The notes beneath the pieces were generated by a model that worked only from the letters and a program-made list of their open reading frames with translations, was not told where the DNA came from and did no database searches. A DNA stretch of 64,000 nucleotides from Clostridia bacterium. GTDB taxonomy: Bacteria; Bacillota; Clostridia; Monoglobales; Monoglobaceae. Position numbers and translations under genes: made by a program. Positions 3,191 through 15,916 of this stretch are shown here, piece by piece (position 1 is the first letter of the stretch; each line of letters opens with the position of its first letter). The stretch is taken from the NCBI GenBank assembly GCA_017456605.1, contig JAFTJA010000013.1:62001-126000 (forward strand), given 5' to 3'.

Positions 3191-3230
3191 AAAAAAACAT
3201 CGGATGCATTATCGCATCCGATGTTTGATT
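3191..3230 (-). terminator. Bidirectional intrinsic terminator
   Basis: A perfect stem ACATCGGATGC (3198-3208) / GCATCCGATGT (3214-3224) is flanked by A7 on the left and a long T run on the right, so it can end transcription in both directions. It closes the leftward surface-protein gene that ends at 3239. Confidence 0.9.
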
Positions 3231-3238
3231 TTTTTTTG

Positions 3239-6200
3239 TTATGCAAGGTTGTCTATTGAAAGCTGGAACATATCAATTGACGGTGCCTTGTAAAGAACAG
3301 CATATGAATCTTCTGTTTCATTCATCGCCTTGCCGTAAATTTCGGCAAGTGTCTTGATGTCAAGATATCCGCCAACAAGAACAGGAGTTTCAGCTGTACC
3401 TGCTGTGCCGTTTACGTCATAGCTGGTAGAATTTTCAGTAAAGGTAACCTTTCCGTCTCCCATAGTGAGCGTTACTGTTGAGCCTGATTTTTTAGCCTCA
3501 ACACCAAATACCTTTTCGATTGTGTCAAGGTCGTATCTGCCATCTTTTGCCATTACCTGATAATAGTCACCATAAATCCATGCCTCGCCGCTTTCTTTGG
3601 GAAGTACACAGTGATCTTGTGCACCTGTTGCAACGACGTCATAACCCTGGAAAAGTCTGTAGTGGAGCTGAGGATATCTTTTGAGAGTCTTCATCTTTGA
3701 AATATCCTGTGCACCAATTACACATCCGGGGAGATTGTGCTGGTAGTTTGTTGCACGCCAGTAGATTACGCCGTTTATGAAATTCATCATAAAGTCAGAG
3801 GTATGAAGAGTCGGCTCATCATTTGCTTCCATAAGGTCTGCAATAAATTCCCAGTTTTTCATTCCGTCATAGCTTACTGCAAGAGCAAGTCTGTTTCTGG
3901 GCTGCTGAATCCACTGGAAGTCCGCTGTCTGAGTGTCAGAGTTAAATACTGCATAATATGTGTTTGGATTTTCCCAGTCACGTACAACGCGGTAACAGCA
4001 CTGTGTATGAGGAAGTCCAAGGTTATGCGGTGTCAGGTCAAAGCTCTTGCCGTTGTCATAAGAAATAAAGTAAGCTATGAATCCTGAATTTGAACGGCAA
4101 AGCAACCAGATTTCGTTTTCTCTTGGTGTATCAACGCACATTGCCTCGTTCATAACAATGCCTGTATTAAAGGTGTTTACCTCTGTCTCTGACTGGTGCC
4201 AGGTAATACCGTCATCCGAATAGAACACCGTCTGACGGCCAAAGTCTTCATCACCGCGGGTACCGGGGTAGAAAAGTCTTCCGTCCATTGTACATATAAG
4301 TCGGCTACCTGCACCTACATACCAACCGTCACCAAAGGGATAGCTTTCGCTCCAGGTTGCACCCTGGTCTTTTGAAATCTGTGATACAAAACCTGTTCCT
4401 GCACCTGTAACCCTTACCCAAGTTCCGTCAGGCATAATTGTAAACTGTGCAGTTCCGATGCTGGGACCGCTGCCCACTTTCCAGGTCTTTCCACCGTCAG
4501 TTGATTCAAGCTCGGAAGTACCATAGGTAGAGATAACGCCCTCGCGCTTTTCATAGTATCCAAACGGTGATTTATAGTTAGCGTCTGTAGACCATTCGTG
4601 TGTAAATGAATATGTTCCGCCGGGTACAACACGGTTTTTGCCCACGTATTCAAAGTCATCAAAGGCATATCCTCCGTTTTCAACGCCCATACCCATACGT
4701 CCGTACCAAATAATTTTGAGGTTGTTTTCAAGGTCAACAGAATAAACCTCTTTGCCATTTTGGAGAACAGTTACGTTGAGTCCCTCGGTAACAAGCTCGT
4801 AATCATACCACTTGCCGGTTTGAATTGCATCCTTTGCCGATTTTGTATCAGAGAATTTAAGTACGTTTTCACCATCACGGATTTCCATAAACCATTCACT
4901 GTTGTCAAAATCGTATCCAACACGGGTACGTGCATCACCATAGGAACGTCTCATCTGTACATAAACCTTGCCGGAAGCTTTTTCAGCCATACCGCGCCAC
5001 TTTATGCTTGGGTGATTGTCAATTGCATTTGCCAAAAGTACGCCGCTTCCATTTAAGCTCATATAGTGATTGCCTGTTCTGGTATCAGTTTTCACCTCGG
5101 TATCAAGTGACAGTGAAGATGTAAGGCGATAGTTTTCAGCCTTGGTCATCCAATATTCGGTATAAGGGTATTCTGTATCGCCCTCAAAGGTCTCTTTGTA
5201 ATAGAACACGTCATCGCTGTTTTTGAAAGCAACAAAGGTTGAAGCCTTGGGGTTTGACATCTTTCTGGTTATCTGGGTCTTTCCGCCCTGAAGCATTGCT
5301 CTGAACCAGCCAACAGTTTTGTTGTTGCAGGTCAGCTGTGCAATACCAAGACCAACTGTAAGTCTGTAGTAACCGGGCTCAAAAGAGTCTGCAAGCTTAT
5401 CTTCTGTTTTGTGACCATGTGTAAGTGTGAGGTCACGCATTGCATAAACGCCGTCCTCACGGAAAGAAATTGTTGATGCAAATGTACTGTCGCAGAAGTA
5501 GAATTCTTCGGGTGATGTATCAGTTTTGTCAAACTCGATTGCATAATATTTTGTTTCGGGAAGTGCCCCTGAATCATAAAATTCTTCGCCCTTCCACTCA
5601 TCCGAGAAAAGCTGAGCCTTTACTCCTGAGCCTTTGATTGTAACATTCGAAAGACCTGAGTCTGTGGTTGACTGCTTGTATGTGGGTTCATAAGGAAGGA
5701 GAACAGACTCAAGATACTGATTCTTCCAGTAAACATCTGCATGACCCGAATCAACAACAATCTTATAATCACCATAGCCAATGCCCTTATAGGTCTTTTC
5801 ACCATCCATTGTCTTGTAGGTAACGCCATCCTTGGTATGCTTCATTGAAAGTGTGAAGTATCCGTCATTCAGATAAAAGCTGCCGTTACCTGATTTATAA
5901 TCGTAATTTACCTCATATTCACGTCCAATATCAAGAGCCTTGCCCTTTACATAGTCAACCTTGACAAGCGCATTGTCGGTTGTCACAACCATACCGTTTG
6001 CGTTGTAAACCTTGGCGTTTACAGCACCTGTACCAACCTGAAATCCTGAAAGTGTAGCAGTAAATGGCGCTGATGTATCGGTTGCAACAAGCTTTCCGTT
6101 AATGAAAAATTCAGCCTTTGTTGCCTTGTCCTTTTCTGTTATAGACTCTGCCTTTACTGTTGCCACAACCTTGTCGCCGTAATTGATTGATTCTTTATTT

Positions 6201-7648
6201 AGGCTTACTGATGCGTTCATACCGGGCTTTACGACAAAGCACTGGTCGCCTGTTTCAGCGTTTTCTATCTTTGCTGTCAGTGAATATGTACCAACCTTTG
6301 CATCCTTTAAGGTATAAAGATAGTCATCCTTTTTGTAGCCGGAACCAACATAAACATCGTTTATGTAGTAGTCAATTTTTTCAGCATCTGAGGGCGTTTC
6401 GGCTTTGATTTCAATATCGCCGCCTGCGGCAAATTCCGAGTTACCGATAGGTGCCACAAGCTTGACCTCATCCTCAAAGTAAGGTGTGTATTTTACCCAG
6501 TCAAGCATAACCTCGTTTGAAAGAGTAGATGCCTGCTGAGAGAATATTGAAACGTGCCATACATTGTTGGCAGCGGTGTTTATTTTGTATCTTGAAACAA
6601 GCTTTTTGCCATCGATGAACCATTCAATAGAGTCCCCTCTCACCTCTGCCTTAAGGGTAAACCAGTCATGACCGTAAGTATAAGGCAGTGCATTCTGCGG
6701 ACCTTCATAAAGGGGGTCCTCACCATCCATACTGTAGTTATTAAACACAATCTTTGTACCAGTTCGGAAGGTTATCCATGCATGGCGGTTGCCCGTTGAA
6801 ATCTGGAACTTTGTATTTCCTGGATTCATGTGTTCAGGCAGTTCCGGGAACCTTGCCCTGAACTCCATATCAAAGTTCGTGGGCGGTCTAAGTGGTCTTT
6901 CAATGCTTCGGTAGGTAAGGTTTTCACCAAAGGTTGTTGTAAGCTTGATAAGACCTTCTTCGGGATAGTGTGTTACAAAGGGAGCCTGTTCAACTCTCCA
7001 GCCGCCGATTTCATTCCAATCCTGGAAGAAAGGCTCGGTGTATTCCTTAGTAAGCTTGAGTTCATCAGGTGCAAAGTATATACTGTCCTCATTTGTGCTG
7101 ATGTGAACATCCGTTACATAAGCCGTGCCCCCATTTGCAGCCCAGAAGTACACCGCCGCTGTTTCCCAGCCTTCATCTCGCATTTCTTGAGTACCAACAT
7201 ACTCGTCATCAAAGTAGACATCCTGAACATTCTTATTATAGTCAACTTCTATGCGGTAATCATGCCATCCGCTCTCGTTAGGAACAGCAATCGCCTGACC
7301 TCCGCCAAATATTGAAACCGCACCTGATTGTATATAATAACCAGCACGCTGGTGTCCTTCAAAGTGAACCTGCACGCCCAGTGAGTTTGATGCTGTTTCA
7401 ATCATATATGAAAATGAAACCGTAAACTTGTCAGCATAGATAGCTCTTGCCTGAAGCATAGGAGCACCATCCGGCAAATATACCGAGCCGTCAGACATAC
7501 GCTTTGCACCACCTGAAATCGACCATGCCGAAGCGCTTTGCTTGTACCAATCATCTTTGGCTGCCGCCTGAGCCGTAATTACAGACATAGGTGCAACCAA
7601 TGAGCAGATAAGAGCAAGCATACAAACAAATGAAATAATTTTTTTCAT
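3239..7648 (-). CDS. Very large secreted sialidase-like (BNR) multidomain protein
   Basis: 1469 residues with a signal peptide (MKKIISFVCMLALICSLV, cleavage near AQAAA). Residues about 35-395 contain two concanavalin/LamG-like modules, residues about 405-560 Ig-like modules (FINGKLVATDTSAPF), and residues about 800-1000 another LamG-like module. Residues about 1015-1365 carry five Asp-box repeats at about 1047 (STDGGKTW), 1093 (SKDQGATW), 1145 (SDDGITW), 1200 (SYDNGKSF) and 1262 (SYDGMKNW), typical of the six-bladed propeller of sialidases. The last 100 residues look like a copper-amine-oxidase N-terminal (stalk) domain. It probably binds or cleaves host or plant glycans outside the cell. I could not confirm the sialidase Arg triad and Tyr/Glu nucleophile, so it may be a non-enzymatic propeller. 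The AGAAAGGA site supports the start. It follows two SLH genes on the same strand. Confidence 0.8.
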   Translation of the reverse strand: MKKIISFVCMLALICSLVAPMSVITAQAAAKDDWYKQSASAWSISGGAKRMSDGSVYLPDGAPMLQARAIYADKFTVSFSYMIETASNSLGVQVHFEGHQRAGYYIQSGAVSIFGGGQAIAVPNESGWHDYRIEVDYNKNVQDVYFDDEYVGTQEMRDEGWETAAVYFWAANGGTAYVTDVHISTNEDSIYFAPDELKLTKEYTEPFFQDWNEIGGWRVEQAPFVTHYPEEGLIKLTTTFGENLTYRSIERPLRPPTNFDMEFRARFPELPEHMNPGNTKFQISTGNRHAWITFRTGTKIVFNNYSMDGEDPLYEGPQNALPYTYGHDWFTLKAEVRGDSIEWFIDGKKLVSRYKINTAANNVWHVSIFSQQASTLSNEVMLDWVKYTPYFEDEVKLVAPIGNSEFAAGGDIEIKAETPSDAEKIDYYINDVYVGSGYKKDDYLYTLKDAKVGTYSLTAKIENAETGDQCFVVKPGMNASVSLNKESINYGDKVVATVKAESITEKDKATKAEFFINGKLVATDTSAPFTATLSGFQVGTGAVNAKVYNANGMVVTTDNALVKVDYVKGKALDIGREYEVNYDYKSGNGSFYLNDGYFTLSMKHTKDGVTYKTMDGEKTYKGIGYGDYKIVVDSGHADVYWKNQYLESVLLPYEPTYKQSTTDSGLSNVTIKGSGVKAQLFSDEWKGEEFYDSGALPETKYYAIEFDKTDTSPEEFYFCDSTFASTISFREDGVYAMRDLTLTHGHKTEDKLADSFEPGYYRLTVGLGIAQLTCNNKTVGWFRAMLQGGKTQITRKMSNPKASTFVAFKNSDDVFYYKETFEGDTEYPYTEYWMTKAENYRLTSSLSLDTEVKTDTRTGNHYMSLNGSGVLLANAIDNHPSIKWRGMAEKASGKVYVQMRRSYGDARTRVGYDFDNSEWFMEIRDGENVLKFSDTKSAKDAIQTGKWYDYELVTEGLNVTVLQNGKEVYSVDLENNLKIIWYGRMGMGVENGGYAFDDFEYVGKNRVVPGGTYSFTHEWSTDANYKSPFGYYEKREGVISTYGTSELESTDGGKTWKVGSGPSIGTAQFTIMPDGTWVRVTGAGTGFVSQISKDQGATWSESYPFGDGWYVGAGSRLICTMDGRLFYPGTRGDEDFGRQTVFYSDDGITWHQSETEVNTFNTGIVMNEAMCVDTPRENEIWLLCRSNSGFIAYFISYDNGKSFDLTPHNLGLPHTQCCYRVVRDWENPNTYYAVFNSDTQTADFQWIQQPRNRLALAVSYDGMKNWEFIADLMEANDEPTLHTSDFMMNFINGVIYWRATNYQHNLPGCVIGAQDISKMKTLKRYPQLHYRLFQGYDVVATGAQDHCVLPKESGEAWIYGDYYQVMAKDGRYDLDTIEKVFGVEAKKSGSTVTLTMGDGKVTFTENSTSYDVNGTAGTAETPVLVGGYLDIKTLAEIYGKAMNETEDSYAVLYKAPSIDMFQLSIDNLA

Positions 7649-7783: not shown

Positions 7784-10579
7784 TTAGTTATCAATAATTA
7801 CAATTTGTTCAAGGCTTCCTCTTAACACAAGCATAACTTCAGAAGGATTGTTGAGGTCCTGTGAAGCGGTAACCGCATCTGCCATAGAGGCTTTCTCAAT
7901 CTTATCTCCGCGATTTGTGGAATACTTGTATATAGTAGCATTTGTTGTAGCATAATATTCGATATATTCATGGGCATTGCCATGATCTTTACAATCAGTC
8001 GGTCTCTTCAAGCAAACCTTTATGTATCCGCCTTCATTGTGAAGAAGTGTGCCCCTCAAAACACCGCATCCAAGCTCTGACAATGCCTCAGTGACACTAT
8101 TTATATCCCTAATTTCACTGTTATCCGCATCAGCAGCGTCAAATGTACCTGCATACCATTCTACACAATTAGCCGCATTTTCGATGCTATAAACCTTTGT
8201 GTTATGAACTATCTTGTTGTTCTTATCAGCAACAAACAACCAAACATCTCCAATTTTCATAGTGCTAAAAATATCGTCGTCACAAGTAAATTTAAACTCT
8301 GTGCTACCTTGGTATGCACTAACAATATTTTCAACGTCACCATTATTGTTCAGTTCCTGATAAAGTTCCGAAATAAGATATGGACTGCTCCATCTCATTT
8401 CATATCTGTTAAAGTCATTATTTTCATAAATGAAAATTGCATCACAAATAGCGCTGACCTCATTCACGTTAACTAGATCCACTACCATTCTGGCAGCATT
8501 GCGCATTCTTCCAACCGTGTACAAATTCTCACTGTATCTGTCATAGTAGTCCATTGTCAAAATTTCTGTTCCCCCAGTGGGAATCGCAATCGGCGTCCAG
8601 AGTGCAGTTGTGCTAGTGGTTTTGTTGTATATAATTTTATTACCGGAAGAATACTGAATATCTGCATTTGAAGGAGTCACCAGCTTTGTGAATTGGCTGT
8701 CGGTGTTTGTATCCAGAGTGTTAGCATCACCACTTACAGCCAAGGTATCAATTTTGTTTACTTCGCCATTACTGTTAAAGCCAATCATAATCGGCTGAGC
8801 CACAGCACCTGCTATATTTCCTGCAGAATGCGTAGCAGAATTCAGCAAATGACCTTTTGCATTGCCCGCATTTTCAAAGCGTACATCATCAATAAAAATC
8901 TTTTCTGCTCCGTCATAGATATAGTAGTTTCCTTCCATATCAACCACAGCAAGCTTTGCCTCAGGTGAACCAAAGGTTTGGTCAACCGCAACAAAATCTA
9001 CGAGATATGCATAAGTCATACCTGCCTTGTCGCCTTTAATAACTGCAACAACCTCATCCTCGAAAACAAACAGGTTATATGCTCTGCCCAGTTCAAGTGT
9101 ATTGCTAGACCATTTCTGTGTTAAATCATTTGTCAATGACAAGTATTTCCACGGAGTATATGTGGTACCGCCTGCAACAAAATAATTTGTGCCGGTTGAT
9201 GTAACCTCTACATTCGTTTTAGTTGCTTTGGCTACTGCGATGGTGGTCTTTTTGTAGGTGGCGTTTTTACCACTTTCCTTCACTGCCATAAGGTTTTTAG
9301 CTCTAACTTTGTCAAAGCCAACTTCTTCACCATCTGAGAAAAATTTATAAGCATCGTCATCAGATAGGTCGATGATGCCTTTTTCACCATAGGTATCAGT
9401 ATAAATCTTTTCGCCCTTATTATCAACGTTTGAGCTGATATAGAATTTGTAACTGTCAATCTTCACTACATCATAGGCAGCGTCGCTGTCGTTATTGATG
9501 AAGGTAACCTTACCAAATTTCGGTACCATTTCATTTGTTTCATAGGTGGGGTTTGCAATATCATTGAAGATAATTCTGGTGCCGCTGGAAATTCCAATTT
9601 TCTTTATGCTGTTATTTTTTTCGTATGAATAAACACCATTTGTGAAACCTACCAGTTCATTATGCGTCAAAACAAACTCTTTGTTTTTGTCAGATTTATA
9701 GATATAAATTATTTCTTTTATGCCATTCTTGTTGTCGCGGTAAAAGTAATTTATTTTGTAACCTAAAAGGTCTGTTACATCCACACCATACTTGTATGTA
9801 ATGCCCGAAATTCCGATTTGATCTTCACCAAGTCCGCTTTTTGACTCTTTGAGAGTTGTACCTGGAAGCGAATCCAGAATACCGATTTCGTGCTTAATAC
9901 CATCAAGGTGCTCAAAACCAAGATAAGATTCATCAATCACGTATCCAACATCAACAGTGCCATCACTCAAAATCTTGTATGAATTTGGTCGTACTGCTGG
10001 TGAATTGTAAGCGTTAAAAAGCATTCTCAGCATCTGTGCTTGAGTAACTGTGCTGCCAACAGGGATACCATCTAAAATGTCTGTATCAAGCAAAATTTTG
10101 TCAACACCAAGAACATCAATATATGGTTTCCAGCCAAGAGCCCTCAAAAGAACTGTTGCAGCTTCTTTTGTTGTAACATAATTATTGGGGCGGAAAGTTC
10201 CATCCGGATAACCGTTCATATATCCAGCATTAACAACAGCCTTAATTTCTCCGTAATATTCATGTTCTGAGGACAAATCCTTAAAAAGTGTCTCATAGCT
10301 TTGCGGATAATCAACAGTGATATTTGCAAAGCGGCATGTATACCATGCAATAAAGTGTCTTGTAAGTAATTCTTCGTGACGTGCACCCAAATCATTTATA
10401 TTTGTCCAATGTGTGATGCCGAGTTTGTTAAGCATATACATCATATCTTGTGTAACATATTCATTTGTTGTGTACTCATTTTCTTCCTGAAAGCCGTAGT
10501 GATTGGCAAAAACAGGAGCACTAACTGCTGAAAGTACCATTATCACAGACAAAATGCTTGCCAAAAATCTTTTATTCAT
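7784..10579 (-). CDS. SLH-domain surface protein, N-terminal SLH repeats
   Basis: 931 residues from the ATG at 10579, which lies 9 nt after AAAGGA; an ATG at 10588 touches that site with no spacing and is less likely. A signal peptide (MNKRFLASILSVIMVLSAV, cleavage near VFA) is followed by S-layer homology repeats in residues about 25-205, the clearest being IKAVVNAGYMNGYPDGTFRP and the KEAATVLLRALGW block. SLH repeats bind pyruvylated secondary cell-wall polymer, so the protein should be displayed on the wall. The other 700 or so residues are beta-rich, polar and low in Cys, with no family I recognise; their length and position suggest an S-layer-type subunit or assembly factor. It lies 26 nt downstream of another SLH gene and is probably co-transcribed with it. 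Confidence 0.85.
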   Translation of the reverse strand: MNKRFLASILSVIMVLSAVSAPVFANHYGFQEENEYTTNEYVTQDMMYMLNKLGITHWTNINDLGARHEELLTRHFIAWYTCRFANITVDYPQSYETLFKDLSSEHEYYGEIKAVVNAGYMNGYPDGTFRPNNYVTTKEAATVLLRALGWKPYIDVLGVDKILLDTDILDGIPVGSTVTQAQMLRMLFNAYNSPAVRPNSYKILSDGTVDVGYVIDESYLGFEHLDGIKHEIGILDSLPGTTLKESKSGLGEDQIGISGITYKYGVDVTDLLGYKINYFYRDNKNGIKEIIYIYKSDKNKEFVLTHNELVGFTNGVYSYEKNNSIKKIGISSGTRIIFNDIANPTYETNEMVPKFGKVTFINNDSDAAYDVVKIDSYKFYISSNVDNKGEKIYTDTYGEKGIIDLSDDDAYKFFSDGEEVGFDKVRAKNLMAVKESGKNATYKKTTIAVAKATKTNVEVTSTGTNYFVAGGTTYTPWKYLSLTNDLTQKWSSNTLELGRAYNLFVFEDEVVAVIKGDKAGMTYAYLVDFVAVDQTFGSPEAKLAVVDMEGNYYIYDGAEKIFIDDVRFENAGNAKGHLLNSATHSAGNIAGAVAQPIMIGFNSNGEVNKIDTLAVSGDANTLDTNTDSQFTKLVTPSNADIQYSSGNKIIYNKTTSTTALWTPIAIPTGGTEILTMDYYDRYSENLYTVGRMRNAARMVVDLVNVNEVSAICDAIFIYENNDFNRYEMRWSSPYLISELYQELNNNGDVENIVSAYQGSTEFKFTCDDDIFSTMKIGDVWLFVADKNNKIVHNTKVYSIENAANCVEWYAGTFDAADADNSEIRDINSVTEALSELGCGVLRGTLLHNEGGYIKVCLKRPTDCKDHGNAHEYIEYYATTNATIYKYSTNRGDKIEKASMADAVTASQDLNNPSEVMLVLRGSLEQIVIIDN

Positions 10580-10614
10580 ATTCTCCATTCCTTTCTACAG
10601 TAGTTTTTAATTTA

Positions 10615-13600
10615 TCAATTTACATAAGAACCTGAATAAAGTTCATCGTTCCATGAATAGAAGTGCATACCGCTAAGCTGTTTGAATATTGAGTGAAGTG
10701 CAACTGCACTTTCTGCACGGGTAAGCTTTTCAAGCGGATTATACATACCATAATCGTCACCCTGAACAAGTCCTGCCTGCTGGAGCTTCACTACTGCGTT
10801 GTATGCATAATCGGGGATATCGGTGTAATCTTTAAACACAAAACCTTTTTCCTCGGTTGCAATATCCACACCCATTACCTGAAGAGCACGTACAATCATA
10901 ACTGCCATGTCGGCACGGAGTACTTCATCGCCTATGCCGAATCTTCCATCAGGATAGCCATTCACTATACCCTTTTTGCAGGCGGTTGCAACAACACCCG
11001 CATACCACTCACCCTTCTTCACGTCAGAGAAGTTTGCATCTGTTTCGGTAATTTCAATTTCAAAAACATTGAGAAGAATTGAAAGGAATTCCTCACGGCT
11101 GATGCTGTCGCCAGGGCGGAACTTACCGTTTCCGTCACCCTTAACAATATTAAATTCGCGAAGCATTGAAATGGGTTCCTTTGCCCAAGCATAGTCAGCG
11201 GTAATATCAGTAAAAGGCTCCACAGGATGACCCTCTTTGTCAAGAACAACCTGTGATTCATTGCTGTTGTTGATTATATGACCTTCTGTGTCATCATCTT
11301 TTGAAGCATCGTTTCCGGCAGTTACCTTACCATCAGAACCATTGACAGTACTTCCGCCGCCACCACCGCTAGAACCGGAGTCGGAGCCGGAACCGGGTGC
11401 TGGGTTAGCAGCCGCTTCATAATCAGTTTTGATATCACTTACGTATCTGTATGGTTTTGCTAACATGGCGCCATAGGTAGCCTCAGCATCTGATACTGAG
11501 CTTGGCGCAGTAGTAAAGGTTATGTATCCATTGTTATGTGCGTTCTGTATAGCTGTTTGAACACGGCCATAATAACCTGTTTCACTAGGTTGACCAAAGG
11601 GGTCATTCGCAGCACTGTGAACGCTGTCAATAGCCTTTACTACATTCACTATATCAGCATCTTTTGTTTCAGCAGCTGCAAGAGTTGCAGCAGTAATAGT
11701 TCCATTAGCAAAAAGGTCAGCAAGTCTATCAGTTGTCTTGTCGCTTCCGGCGCTTCCGGAAACAGTATTGTCGTCAAGGTATTTAACTGTTGCATCTGCA
11801 AGTGCGATGCTGAGAGGACTGGTTATATTATCATCCAGAGCGAAAATATTTTTGATTGCATTCCATTCAGCCTCTGCTCCTGATGCTGATGCTGTGTCTA
11901 CAGCGTAAGCCCAAGACTTGTATGCTGTAAGATAATTCATAAGGAATTCTACATCTGTAATTACAGCAGCAGAGTCCGTAGACGTAGGAGGCGTTGTATA
12001 TGATGTATCGTCAAATCCTTTTTCATCATATGCACTAAACATAATATGATAGTCAAGGCCATCGAAAGCAGGAACACTTACGCCCAACTGTGCATATTCG
12101 CCATCAATAAATTCTTTAAGAGCAGTTGCACTATTTATTTCATCTCTAAACGGTTCAACAATTGTCGCTTCTGCACTCTGCTGTGCGCCTTTCAATTCAT
12201 AAAATGCATTATAAATTTCCGCGATGGCGTCCACGTCTGCATCCGGCTTATTTAACAATTCTCTATAAACCGCATCTATGTTCGCAAGACCGCTCAAATC
12301 AAACAAGTCATAGCCAAAACGTTCGTTGACACCCTCTATCGCAGCGCTTACAGCTGCAATAGTTTGAGTCACAGTTTTTGCATTTGTAAATTCTGCAACA
12401 AAATCATCAACCTTTGCAACATCTTCTGTGATGATAGCAATAAGCGCATCAATAACATCTCCAACTTTTTCAACATCACCGTACTCGCCGTATTTCGCCA
12501 AAAATCCAATTTGAGCATACTTCTCGTCCAAAGCTGCAGTACCGAAATCAATAAACTCTGAAGCAGCATCAGTTGCATCAGTTGCAAAATATTCGAAATA
12601 TGACTGACCATATGTAGTAAGGAAAGTTTCTGCAGAACTATCTGTACCATCGATGTTATTAAAATCAGTTACGATAGTACTCCATCCGCTCTTTGCAGGA
12701 ATAGCAAATGAACGAGTATTTGTATCAAAGCCTGCAAGTGTCACTGTGATATCTTCGTCAGCAGCAATTTTAGCAGGGTCAATCACAATCTTCTTTGTAA
12801 AGCTTCCGTCAGCAGTGGTCTCAAACTGTGTCGCATAAACAACAGTGCCGGATGTATCGCCCTTTGCAACAAGAGTTACAAGAGCAGCTTCTCCTGAGTC
12901 ATGTTTTCCGACTACAGTGATTTCGTTTGCCTTGGTTGTTCTGCCAAGGTTTGCAAAGCTACCTGTCTTTCCTGTACCTGAAGTACCAAGTGTAGCGCTT
13001 GTTTCAGAAGCAGTTACCGCATCAGCAGTACCAAGAACACCGCCCCTGCCAATGGGCATCGTTCCATCTTCAGAACCCCAAAGAAATGCTTCAACTCTGC
13101 CAAAATTATCACTCCAGGTGACAGGATTACCGCTCAGGATAATATCGCCCGTACCGAGAGAGCTGTATGTACTGCGATAAAGTTCAGTCATTTCACCGTT
13201 TGTGTTATATACAGCAGTCATCACTGTTGCATTCTCCAAGCCGCCACCATTAAACAAAGAAATCTTTGGAGTAACGGTTGTACCGTTTGAAGGCTCACTT
13301 CCATCAGCAGGAGCTCCTTCGAAAGTAACACTACTCACACAAGTAGCATCAGTCCGTTTGATTTTTACATAGTCAACCTGATAAACAAGTGAGCTGTGGT
13401 TACCTATGCCAACATTTGCAGCCAATGCTGAAATAGTACGGATGTTAAATCCATACCAAGGGTCATCACCGTTAGCATAGTTACCACTATAGAAGGTGGC
13501 GTCTTCTCTTTGCCACTTGCCTTCCGCCCAGCTACTACTGTTTACCAAAGTTACAGGAGAACCATCGCCATCCTTGACAGTTACATCCGAAAACAATCCA

Positions 13601-14088
13601 GCTGTTGTTTCGTCAACAGTGAATTTGTATGTACGAACAGTACCAACAGGAAATCCGCCAAAAGGCAAAACAATACCATAAGCATCAAGGTTAGAATTAC
13701 TTGCATTGCATGCTCTCTTTGCACCAAAAGCAAAGACATAATCGCCTTCGTTTTCTTGATAAGCGTCGGCAATCTTCTTTACTGCAATTTCAACTTCGTA
13801 TTTCTTAACTGTGAAGTTTGAAACATCCGGTGCATGAAGAAGTGTAGCACCTGTATTATTCTTAGCTGATACCTGAACATAACCGTCCCCGACTTCTACG
13901 GCGCCTGAAACAGTTGCAAGAGTTTGTGTGAAGTTTAATGTCGTAGCATCATCAAACTCTTCATTGACAGCATAGCCGTCCAAAACAATGTTCGGAGTGG
14001 GTGCAGCACTCACCGGCACATAATGTACTATGCATGAGGGTAAAACCAGTGCCACACAAAGCATAATGCATAAAATCTTCTTTAACAT
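10615..14088 (-). CDS. Large SLH-domain surface protein, C-terminal SLH repeats
   Basis: 1157 residues starting at an ATG preceded by TTAGGAGG. A signal peptide (MLKKILCIMLCVALVLPSC) is present; the Cys may make it a lipoprotein, though no good lipobox is visible. Residues about 30-250 form a LamG-like beta-sandwich, followed by Ig-like and helical Ala-rich segments. A Gly/Ser linker at about residues 895-915 (GSGSDSGSSGGGGGS) leads to three SLH repeats at the C-terminus: FTDITADYAWAKEPISML, FSDVKKGEWYAGVVATA and FKDYTDIPDYAYNAVVKL, with REEF, RADMAV and RAESAVA helices. It should be tethered to the wall by these repeats. It is first in a leftward run of three secreted-protein genes with a complex upstream control region. 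Confidence 0.88.
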   Translation of the reverse strand: MLKKILCIMLCVALVLPSCIVHYVPVSAAPTPNIVLDGYAVNEEFDDATTLNFTQTLATVSGAVEVGDGYVQVSAKNNTGATLLHAPDVSNFTVKKYEVEIAVKKIADAYQENEGDYVFAFGAKRACNASNSNLDAYGIVLPFGGFPVGTVRTYKFTVDETTAGLFSDVTVKDGDGSPVTLVNSSSWAEGKWQREDATFYSGNYANGDDPWYGFNIRTISALAANVGIGNHSSLVYQVDYVKIKRTDATCVSSVTFEGAPADGSEPSNGTTVTPKISLFNGGGLENATVMTAVYNTNGEMTELYRSTYSSLGTGDIILSGNPVTWSDNFGRVEAFLWGSEDGTMPIGRGGVLGTADAVTASETSATLGTSGTGKTGSFANLGRTTKANEITVVGKHDSGEAALVTLVAKGDTSGTVVYATQFETTADGSFTKKIVIDPAKIAADEDITVTLAGFDTNTRSFAIPAKSGWSTIVTDFNNIDGTDSSAETFLTTYGQSYFEYFATDATDAASEFIDFGTAALDEKYAQIGFLAKYGEYGDVEKVGDVIDALIAIITEDVAKVDDFVAEFTNAKTVTQTIAAVSAAIEGVNERFGYDLFDLSGLANIDAVYRELLNKPDADVDAIAEIYNAFYELKGAQQSAEATIVEPFRDEINSATALKEFIDGEYAQLGVSVPAFDGLDYHIMFSAYDEKGFDDTSYTTPPTSTDSAAVITDVEFLMNYLTAYKSWAYAVDTASASGAEAEWNAIKNIFALDDNITSPLSIALADATVKYLDDNTVSGSAGSDKTTDRLADLFANGTITAATLAAAETKDADIVNVVKAIDSVHSAANDPFGQPSETGYYGRVQTAIQNAHNNGYITFTTAPSSVSDAEATYGAMLAKPYRYVSDIKTDYEAAANPAPGSGSDSGSSGGGGGSTVNGSDGKVTAGNDASKDDDTEGHIINNSNESQVVLDKEGHPVEPFTDITADYAWAKEPISMLREFNIVKGDGNGKFRPGDSISREEFLSILLNVFEIEITETDANFSDVKKGEWYAGVVATACKKGIVNGYPDGRFGIGDEVLRADMAVMIVRALQVMGVDIATEEKGFVFKDYTDIPDYAYNAVVKLQQAGLVQGDDYGMYNPLEKLTRAESAVALHSIFKQLSGMHFYSWNDELYSGSYVN

Positions 14089-14362
14089 TTTTATTCCTCC
14101 TAAACTTTAGATGAAAATATATGTAAATTTTAATAATTTATCTTTTTTGAAGCTCGCTATCAAGCCGAATATACCAAATGCTTTTATACAAAAAAACACT
14201 ATGATACACTATCATTATAATCGTATATTTTCCCTGTGTCTTGGACAATATTCGCATTTTTTAGTATAATATTCGCAATAAGCAATTTTTTTCACTATAA
14301 ATATATTCTATCACAGATGTAAAACTATTGAAACAAGAAATTTTTTCTAAATCAAGTCAAAT
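14089..14362 (-). promoter_or_regulatory. Control region of the surface-protein operon
   Basis: This AT-rich stretch holds a minus-strand TATAAT (14219-14214) with a poor -35 (AAGACA, 17-bp spacing), giving a start near 14207 and a leader of about 120 nt. Upstream, the 10-mer AATATTCGCA is repeated exactly at 14247-14256 and 14268-14277, a 21-bp period or two helical turns, at about -40 and -61. ATGATA-CAC-TATCAT (14201-14215) is an inverted repeat over the start site. A weak -35 plus phased direct repeats suggests activation by a dimeric response regulator. Nothing else was seen here. Confidence 0.5.
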
Positions 14363-14399: not shown

Positions 14400-14987
14400 T
14401 CATTCATAAACTTTGATTACCGGTTGAAGCTGTTTTCCCTCGAGAGCCGCCTCGATTGAAGGAACTATCTGCTCCATTTCTGCAACCAGAGAGTTTTCTT
14501 TGTTTTTGAAATCATCCTGACCAAAGGGAACAAAAAAAATATTTTTCATATTGCTTAATATTCCTATGTTTTTTGCGTTGTTGCCAAGCCCGTCATTGGT
14601 TGATACAGCAATCACCACCGGTCTTTTATTCCGGAGATGTGCTTTCACCGCCAAAGTCACCGAAGAATCTGCAATCCCGGTGGCAATTTTCGCAAGGGAG
14701 TTCCCCGTACAGGGTGCAACAACAAGAACATCTAAGATTTCTTTCGGTCCTATGGGCTCTGCATCCCGGATGCTTGCTATAACTTTTTCTTTTGTCATTT
14801 CTTCAAGCTTTCTTATATGTTCTTCTGCCTTTCCGAATCGTGTATCCGTCGTATAACTTGTTTCTGACATAATGGGAATAACCTTTGCACCTGCCTCCAC
14901 AAGTTTTTTAATCTGGGGAAAGACTTTTTTAAACGTACAAAACGAACCGGTTATGGCAAAGCCCACCGTCTTGTTTTTCAGATTCAT
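14400..14987 (-). CDS. dpaB: Dipicolinate synthase subunit B
   Basis: 195 residues (the Bacillus protein is about 200) from the ATG at 14987, which overlaps the dpaA stop as ATGA and has GGAGA upstream. It is a flavoprotein-fold protein: VGFAITGSFCTFKKVFPQI at the N-terminus, the VVAPCTGNSLAKIATGIADS block and VIAVSTNDGLGNNAKNIG match the family that includes SpoVFB. With DpaA it converts the condensation product of the lysine pathway into dipicolinic acid in the mother cell, which is then loaded into the spore core with calcium. Translational coupling with dpaA is clear. Its presence shows that the organism makes dipicolinate through DpaAB and need not rely on the EtfA route used by some clostridia. 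Confidence 0.95.
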   Translation of the reverse strand: MNLKNKTVGFAITGSFCTFKKVFPQIKKLVEAGAKVIPIMSETSYTTDTRFGKAEEHIRKLEEMTKEKVIASIRDAEPIGPKEILDVLVVAPCTGNSLAKIATGIADSSVTLAVKAHLRNKRPVVIAVSTNDGLGNNAKNIGILSNMKNIFFVPFGQDDFKNKENSLVAEMEQIVPSIEAALEGKQLQPVIKVYE

Positions 14988-15886
14988 CCATTCATCTCCA
15001 TTTCCTCCAGTATATTGAATATTGTACTGCAAATAATATCACCTGCTGTATTCGGCGCCACCTTACCCGGGAGTGAAAGCGCCCAAATCACCTTTATCCC
15101 CCGGCGTCTTGCTTCGTCAAAATCCACCCCGCCGGGTTTTGATGCCAAATCAATTATCAGAGTTTTTTTGCTGATTTTTGAAAGCAAATCGAAATCCAAA
15201 ATCATACTTGGTACGGTGTTGAAAATAATATCAAATTTGCCTATTTCGCCACTTAGCTGTGAAATTGGTACTGTCTCAAAGCCCATAGCCATTCCATATG
15301 CCAAATCTCTGTTTTTTCTTGCTGAAACCGTGACTTTTGCGCCTATTCCGTCAAGCATTTTTGAAAGAATTTTGCCTATTCTGCCACAGCCGATAACCAG
15401 ACAATTTGATGCGTGCAATGTAAACGGTGTTTCTTCCATAGCAATCTGTATTGCACCTTCTGCCGTCGGCACTGCATTCAGCATAGCAAGCTCTTCACGG
15501 CAGGAATAATCAACAAGGGTTATTCCGTGGGTTTCTGCCATTGTTTTTATTCTTGCATCGCATCGTCCGGCAAGAACTTTATTTTTCGGTGAAATATTTT
15601 CAAACACTTCTGTGAGCATAATTTTTCGCTCAAATAGTGGCGTGTTGAGACTTTTTCCGTCTGTGGTGTAGGGAAGCGGCAATACAACAGCGTGATATGT
15701 ATCATCACTCTCTGAAAAATCATCTATTATTCTGACATCTTCCCATAGCTTTTGGGTACACTCTCCGCCAAACCCCAAAGCGTACACAGTATTTCCAAGC
15801 TTTGATGCTTCATTTATCGCTCTTATTTGCCTGAGGTCTCCCCCGACAAATAATAATTTTTTTGTTTTGGTGGAACTTTTCATCAT
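14984..15886 (-). CDS. dpaA: Dipicolinate synthase subunit A
   Basis: About 301 residues from the ATG at 15886 (an ATG at 15883 is equally possible); GGAGG lies 5-8 nt upstream, while the GTG at 15898 would leave no ribosome site. The N-terminal part (LLFVGGDLRQIRAINEAS, YALGFGG) and the dinucleotide-binding half (CLVIGCGRIGKILSKML, GAKVTVSARK) fit the dipicolinate synthase A family, a Rossmann dehydrogenase-like subunit. It acts in the mother cell late in sporulation with DpaB. A sigma-K-like promoter (15917-15943) lies about 30 nt upstream, in line with the control of spoVF in Bacillus. The gene follows a strong terminator, so it is an independent two-gene operon. Confidence 0.95.
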   Translation of the reverse strand: MMKSSTKTKKLLFVGGDLRQIRAINEASKLGNTVYALGFGGECTQKLWEDVRIIDDFSESDDTYHAVVLPLPYTTDGKSLNTPLFERKIMLTEVFENISPKNKVLAGRCDARIKTMAETHGITLVDYSCREELAMLNAVPTAEGAIQIAMEETPFTLHASNCLVIGCGRIGKILSKMLDGIGAKVTVSARKNRDLAYGMAMGFETVPISQLSGEIGKFDIIFNTVPSMILDFDLLSKISKKTLIIDLASKPGGVDFDEARRRGIKVIWALSLPGKVAPNTAGDIICSTIFNILEEMEMNG

Positions 15887-15916
15887 TACTTCCTCCACAT
15901 TACGAATTTTATATTA

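Follow-up and report, generated by a model that had tools for sequence, protein, structure and literature searches.

The window analysed in this study, a 64,000-nucleotide stretch of Clostridia bacterium DNA, carries a minus-strand operon for three large surface proteins, and the intergenic region ahead of it raises the question of which regulatory protein might control these genes. A first-pass annotation had noted a 10-bp direct repeat in this region and had proposed that it is bound by a LytTR-type or some other response regulator acting as an activator, perhaps together with a repressor. The features most relevant to this question are collected in Table 1.

Architecture of the promoter region

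The intergenic stretch before the operon comprises 311 bp and is 73% A+T. The 10-bp repeat AATATTCGCA occurs within it at positions 14247-14256 and 14268-14277, with a start-to-start spacing of exactly 21 bp, just as the first-pass annotation had stated. On the minus strand, and thus oriented toward the operon (14088-3239), the repeat reads TGCGAATATT (14277-14268 and 14256-14247). Dinucleotide shuffles of the 311-bp stretch yield a 10-bp direct repeat at any spacing in 458 of 2000 cases, at spacings of 20-22 bp in seven of 2000, and at exactly 21 bp in only two. The TATAAT with a poor -35 element that had been described downstream is also present on the minus strand (14219-14214, with AAGACA separated from it by a 17-bp spacer), and transcription of the operon would be expected to start near position 14207. 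The bare 10-bp repeats lie 11 bp apart, and the nearer copy ends 4 bp before the -35.

The inverted repeat that had been reported over the start site is likewise found at 14201-14215. However, 482 of 2000 dinucleotide shuffles contain 6-bp arms that pair perfectly across a 3-bp loop, which is chance level, and inspection by eye revealed none at the three other promoters that carry the composite site described below. With this element at chance level, the proposed repressor finds no support.

Table 1. Features of the operon, its control region and the four genomic sites (positions refer to the window)
Feature	Position	Strand	Description
Distal half-site TGCGAATATTATACTAAA	14260..14277	-	The -10 lies 58 bp downstream of its start; opens with the 10-bp repeat noted in the first-pass annotation
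Proximal half-site TGCGAATATTGTCCAAGA	14239..14256	-	Starts 37 bp upstream of the -10
Weak -35 AAGACA	14237..14242	-	17-bp spacer to the -10
-10 TATAAT	14214..14219	-	Likely minus-strand promoter
Inverted repeat ATGATA-CAC-TATCAT	14201..14215	.	Spans the expected transcription start
Gene 1	10615..14088	-	1157 aa with three SLH stretches (best 958-1001); N-terminus signal-peptide-like by eye
Gene 2	7784..10588	-	934 aa with a single SLH match; separated from gene 1 by 26 bp
Gene 3	3239..7648	-	1469 aa; BNR_2, 3keto-disac_hyd and Big_7 matches
Terminator-like site	3195..3226	-	Strong; 14-pair stem followed by a T run, just past gene 3 (consensus scan)
Window site	14088-3239 (operon)	-	Heads the three-gene SLH operon
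C6 site			Heads a 597-aa protein without Pfam matches
C14 site			Heads a 2209-aa protein
C15 site			Heads a 529-aa solute-binding lipoprotein

Across the four genomic sites, the conserved unit is about 18 bp long rather than 10. A half-site with the consensus TGCGAAWATTRTnMTAnA is present twice as a direct repeat, 21 bp apart, in 4 of 4 genomic sites, and the subsites TGCGAA and RTnMTA, whose starts are 10 bp apart, are common to both half-sites. At positions 11-18, the two half-sites of a site agree in 18 of 32 cells, a value reached by only 0.125% of random draws from the intergenic DNA of the same promoters. The composite site also keeps a nearly invariant place in the promoter: measured from where the distal half-site starts, the -10 (TATAAT or TACAAT, with a weak -35) lies at 58, 58, 58 and 59 bp in the four promoters. 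In the window, the proximal half-site shares 4 bp (14239-14242) with the -35.

A promoter-like sequence, TGGACA-17-TATAAT (14242-14270), lies on the plus strand, where it overlaps the putative operator and would run antisense to dpaB. It agrees with the consensus at 11 of 12 positions, but no plus-strand open reading frame (ORF) of at least 100 aa begins between it and dpaB, and no comparable plus-strand -35 was seen by eye at the other three sites. That it is a real promoter making an antisense RNA seems extremely unlikely.

Genomic copies and the genes behind them

The first-pass annotation had suggested looking for the spaced repeat elsewhere in the genome, and the outcome is positive. The assembly (1.41 Mb in 20 contigs, 84.7% complete) holds four copies of the spaced-repeat pattern with at most two mismatches and a fifth with three, and a reversed control pattern yields zero. 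This fifth copy (C1; 12.2 bits by the model described next) looks unrelated, lies before a helix-turn-helix gene and was set aside. A sequence-only model of the four sites, with 150 of 1415 first-look candidates scored, assigns 61-66 bits to those four and 12.7 bits to the next match. These scores are not independent, as the model was built from the same four sites; its evidence is the score gap and the count, and the independent pattern search arrives at this count as well.

All four sites face genes whose products have, by eye, a signal-peptide-like N-terminus. The N-terminus of the 597-aa protein resembles that of the gene 1 product (23% over 169 aa, E 7e-9), and the 2209-aa protein is homologous to the gene 3 product (29% over 1294 aa, E 1e-112). 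The solute-binding protein has no BLAST similarity to the other downstream proteins at E 1e-3. The earlier view that surface proteins are the targets is borne out in part: large exported proteins lie behind three of the four promoters and a solute-binding lipoprotein behind the fourth, but only one SLH operon of the genome lies behind a site.

Given that two of the three other downstream proteins resemble operon proteins, the four sites could descend from a single ancestral promoter that was duplicated together with the genes behind it, or the repeat could be due to chance. The two half-sites have mean pairwise identities of 0.77 and 0.86 among the four promoters, compared with 0.56 for the 3-bp gap between them and 0.48 for the ungapped -10 block. 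Values are lower elsewhere: 0.44 for the 40-bp upstream flank, 0.41 for the stretch from the second half-site to the -10, and 0.35 for the 40-bp downstream flank. Because conservation is concentrated in the half-sites in this way, the four promoters are not simply copies. Copying is also at odds with the solute-binding protein gene, whose product shows no such similarity to the others, and with the 2209-aa protein, which matches the product of the third operon gene and not that of the promoter-proximal one. We consider that chance or promoter copying has almost no likelihood of explaining the sites. The repeat is real, part of a small, apparently lineage-specific regulon of four promoters that is probably of the AraC type and serves exported proteins.

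A consensus scan for terminators found none in the two gaps between the operon genes, and three weaker minus-strand sites inside genes. Heavy investment in surface proteins is suggested by the presence of at least 17 SLH-domain ORFs in this 1.4-Mb genome (our own count from 35 SLH matches), and the regulon offers an entry to the control of one SLH operon. An SLH-wide or S-layer-wide signal was rejected, since 15 of the 17 SLH ORFs are not behind a site and the other two belong to this one operon. Genes with likely roles in sporulation adjoin two of the regulated surface genes, namely SpoIIP (L006:10450-11700) and dpaA/dpaB-like genes (window 14400-15898). This proximity is probably a coincidence. 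The same genes would mark the bacterium as a spore-former.

The site seems to be narrowly distributed. At a threshold of E 0.001 (with stricter filters and 99 candidates scored per genome), the composite-site model recovered 0 matches in 50 further genomes from the order, and the pattern (W at position 7, at most two mismatches) gave 12 matches in 59 other genomes versus 17 for the control, which is chance level. In eight congeners, all of them incomplete genomes, the model revealed no comparable site, and the best match reached 17.4 bits. Among seven weak congener matches that were viewed, two precede typA-like genes, one precedes a ribosomal-protein gene and three lack clear promoter character; the remaining match, in G001, led to the operator of the AraC gene divergent from a PIG-L gene that is described below. 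Orthologs of the lipoprotein gene in G001, G002 and G005 have no such site just upstream (G019, G028, G032 and weaker homologs were left out), nor does a 14-kb region around the G005 gene hold a convincing one. A genus-wide signal was rejected, as the model and pattern searches of relatives were at chance or below the cut-off. The four-site regulon, with no comparable site in the eight incomplete congeners, suggests a gain within one genus.

Regulator family and candidate regulators

The genome has eight AraC-family matches, all above cut-off, and a one-component activator of this family probably uses the composite site as its operator. Two 18-bp half-sites arranged as direct repeats 21 bp apart would lie on the same face of the helix, where an AraC-family dimer could bind such that the two helix-turn-helix motifs of each subunit read one half-site. 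With the proximal half-site overlapping the weak -35 by 4 bp, the bound dimer would contact RNA polymerase at sigma region 4, and this contact would turn the operon on. The proposal that an activator site precedes the surface-protein operon is well supported, as the four promoters share a fixed geometry to the -10 and a weak -35.

The spacing of the bare 10-bp repeats (11 bp between them) and their distance to the -35 (4 bp) fit LytTR-regulated promoters, for which PMC6193735 gives repeats mostly 12 bp apart (11 or 13 in a minority) that precede the -35 by 4-11 bp in S. mutans and typically by 10 bp elsewhere. The HdrR/BrsR LytTR promoters covered there are alike in that their repeats, which lie close upstream of the -35, have starts about 21 bp apart, but differ in that their elements span 9-10 bp (PMC6193735), whereas conservation here runs to 18 bp in both copies. 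Furthermore, no LytTR domain was detected in this 84.7%-complete genome by a search that finds LytTR in 5 of 14 control genomes. It is the missing gene and the longer unit, and not the spacing, that cause the LytTR reading favored by the first-pass annotation to fall; we judge it to be very unlikely and AraC to fit better.

DeoR-type, OmpR-type and MerR-like proteins also bind direct repeats. However, DeoR proteins mostly repress, and the placement of this site against the -35 points to activation. No 10-11-bp repeat is evident inside the site, and a periodicity of this size is what the relevant portion of PMC3870299 attributes to DeoR-type rhamnose regulators. A regulator from one of these other families is an unlikely explanation, albeit less so than a LytTR protein.

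If the regulator is an AraC-family protein, which of the eight might it be? The strongest candidate is an AraC/RhaS-like protein at G000:C14 (L031:6057-6914), encoded divergently from fucI (L-fucose isomerase, above its NCBIfam cut-off). This protein combines AraC_binding and HTH_18 domains and comes closest to the AryK, RhaS, RhaR and AraC models, although it falls far below their cut-offs. Within the AraC reading, it is the single most likely regulator of the four promoters, with perhaps slightly less than an even chance of being correct. L-fucose or one of its derivatives would in that case act as the inducer, and the surface operon, the two large exported proteins and the sugar-binding lipoprotein would be tied to the sensing of a fucosylated glycan. 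This notion must be weighed against the fucose regulator FucR of C. bescii, which is read as a repressor at fucI in the part of PMC8579813 that concerns it.

Evidence for this candidate comes in part from the fucI promoters of relatives. In 5 of 5 orthologs with 54-63% identity (G005, G004, G008, G011 and G017), NCTGAAWATTRTTATA starts exactly 58 bp before a TATAAT on the fucI side, and a looser form, GGTGAATATTTTACTA, is found at 58 bp in G016 (34% identity). A second TATAAT lies at 45 bp in G008 and at 64 bp in G017, and the element is absent in G029 (40% identity). In the own-genome fucI/AraC intergenic region (L031:5919-6056), the element reads CGCGAATATTATTACAAT and is single, diverged and located at 68 bp, one helical turn further out. 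With 11.9 bits it outscores all other half-sites in the eight AraC leaders, of which the next reaches 9.4; its score is attained in 2 of 400 shuffles and exceeded at seven non-self places in 217 kb, all seven inside ORFs. Shuffles of the single ortholog elements reach the observed score in 12 to 168 of 400 cases, which is weak. The position at 58 bp is a stronger point for the fucI elements than these shuffle scores, yet it is common to other AraC loci.

The second recognition helix is identical in the own-genome protein and the five orthologs and differs in G016, while the first reads T-K-Y-L in the own genome versus S/P/A-K-Y-F in the five orthologs. This first-helix change would be in step with the change of box A from CT to GC, an agreement that is suggestive only. 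One scenario that accommodates these observations is that an L-fucose-sensing AraC protein, whose site in relatives is at fucI, was rewired in this bacterium to control two giant exported proteins and a sugar-binding lipoprotein along with an operon of the S-layer type. Changes in the operator and in the first helix-turn-helix would have gone hand in hand, with no change in the second helix or box B. We offer this scenario tentatively and rate it as somewhat unlikely in its entirety. If it is true, the cell would remodel its surface on meeting a fucosylated glycan.

Possession of the candidate regulator does not coincide with the motif. Three congeners that carry its ortholog (G004, G005 and G008) have no such regulon by the model, whose best congener match is the 17.4-bit one given above; the presence of the regulator is thus not enough to predict the sites. 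No ortholog of either the fucI-divergent or the C2 regulator was found among the AraC genes of G001, G002, G003, G006 and G007 (31 of 33 places, plus two of G005). Because orthologs of the fucI-divergent regulator are present in G004, G005, G008, G011 and G017, the phylogenetic profile does not track the motif, and its use for picking the regulator was dropped.

Other AraC loci of this lineage have similar operators. One AraC gene (L034:6250-7259) is divergent from a cluster of PIG-L deacetylase, PfkB kinase and M20 peptidase genes. The promoter on its PIG-L side has a 21-bp direct repeat that extends into the -35 and is placed relative to the -10 about as in the window; the repeat is conserved in six aligned orthologs (those with regulators at least 65% identical, from eleven upstream regions considered). 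A paralogous AraC gene at C8 (L030:6867-9886) is divergent from genes for a nucleotidyltransferase and an APH-type phosphotransferase, and it has a 21-bp direct repeat, TGTGATTTTTTTATAAA / AGTTATTTTTCGATAAA, at 59 and 38 bp from the -10. The geometry seen in the window is thus in use at AraC-type operators of this lineage, and it does not single out one regulator.

The composite site might belong to a different AraC protein, such as the PIG-L-adjacent one, one at C8, or one encoded in the missing 15% of the genome. The PIG-L-divergent promoter carries an 11.8-bit half-site pair in promoter register, 37 bp before the -10, that ranks 12th among 434,038 positions. The 11 higher-ranking positions comprise eight that coincide or overlap with the four sites, two inside ORFs and the weak C1 match. 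In addition, one C8 AraC leader contains a 9.4-bit half-site, and an assembly that is 84.7% complete leaves room for a further AraC gene. Conversely, the PIG-L footprint (box B TGNTAAA) agrees in register with the four-site motif only in part, and conservation of both this regulator and its site extends to G001, G003, G002 and G007, where no copy of the four-site motif exceeds 17.4 bits. An AraC protein other than the fucI-divergent one is a serious possibility, though we would not bet on it. The four-promoter regulon can be read from sequence, and together with eight candidate regulators, the first of which is linked to fucose, it makes the inducer of one surface operon testable.

Comparison with known systems

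The arrangement in the window has close counterparts among well-studied AraC-family activators. Direct half-sites about 21 bp apart, of which the proximal one overlaps the -35 by a few bp, are bound by E. coli AraC at araI1-I2 and by XylS at Pm. Both spacing and -35 overlap are shared with the site described here, and XylS half-sites begin with TGCA where these begin with TGCG. The half-site sequences are otherwise different, and no DNA loop or distal operator is established for the window promoter.

Several published systems, each considered here from a portion of the source, provide further points of reference. AraC-family rhamnose regulators of Bacillales, Bacteroides and Enterococcus use direct repeats with 21-bp periodicity (PMC3870299). 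These RhaR groups resemble the present case in regulator family and in having a sugar-related gene set, but they have another half-site sequence and catabolic targets in place of mainly large exported surface proteins (PMC3870299). SphR of Pseudomonas aeruginosa is an AraC-family protein that acts at few promoters through a direct repeat of a 15-bp half-site that starts with TG, with 6-8 bp between the copies (PMC3900636). It is alike in family, in the small number of promoters and in its TG-starting direct half-sites, and unlike in its response to sphingosine, its half-site sequence and its unrelated targets (PMC3900636). An overlap with the -35 is described for AggR (PMC6392122). In C. bescii, 4 of 4 single-component AraC regulators and 3 of 5 AraC-type two-component regulators have sites upstream of promoter elements, which are read as activator sites (PMC8579813).

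A connection between AraC-type proteins and surface antigens is also implied by the model name of the YSIRK-adjacent regulators (NCBIfam TIGR04094). The DNA-binding end of the fucI-divergent protein matches this model at 56 bits, far below the cut-off of 200, and its gene is not next to the surface genes. Among the open-licence papers listed by literature searches, none has a title or abstract start that concerns AraC control of SLH proteins or an AraC regulator linked to both fucose and surface proteins. AraC sites with 21-bp periodicity have already been described, and thus the predicted switch would be ordinary in its design, whereas the set of genes placed under its control would be less usual.
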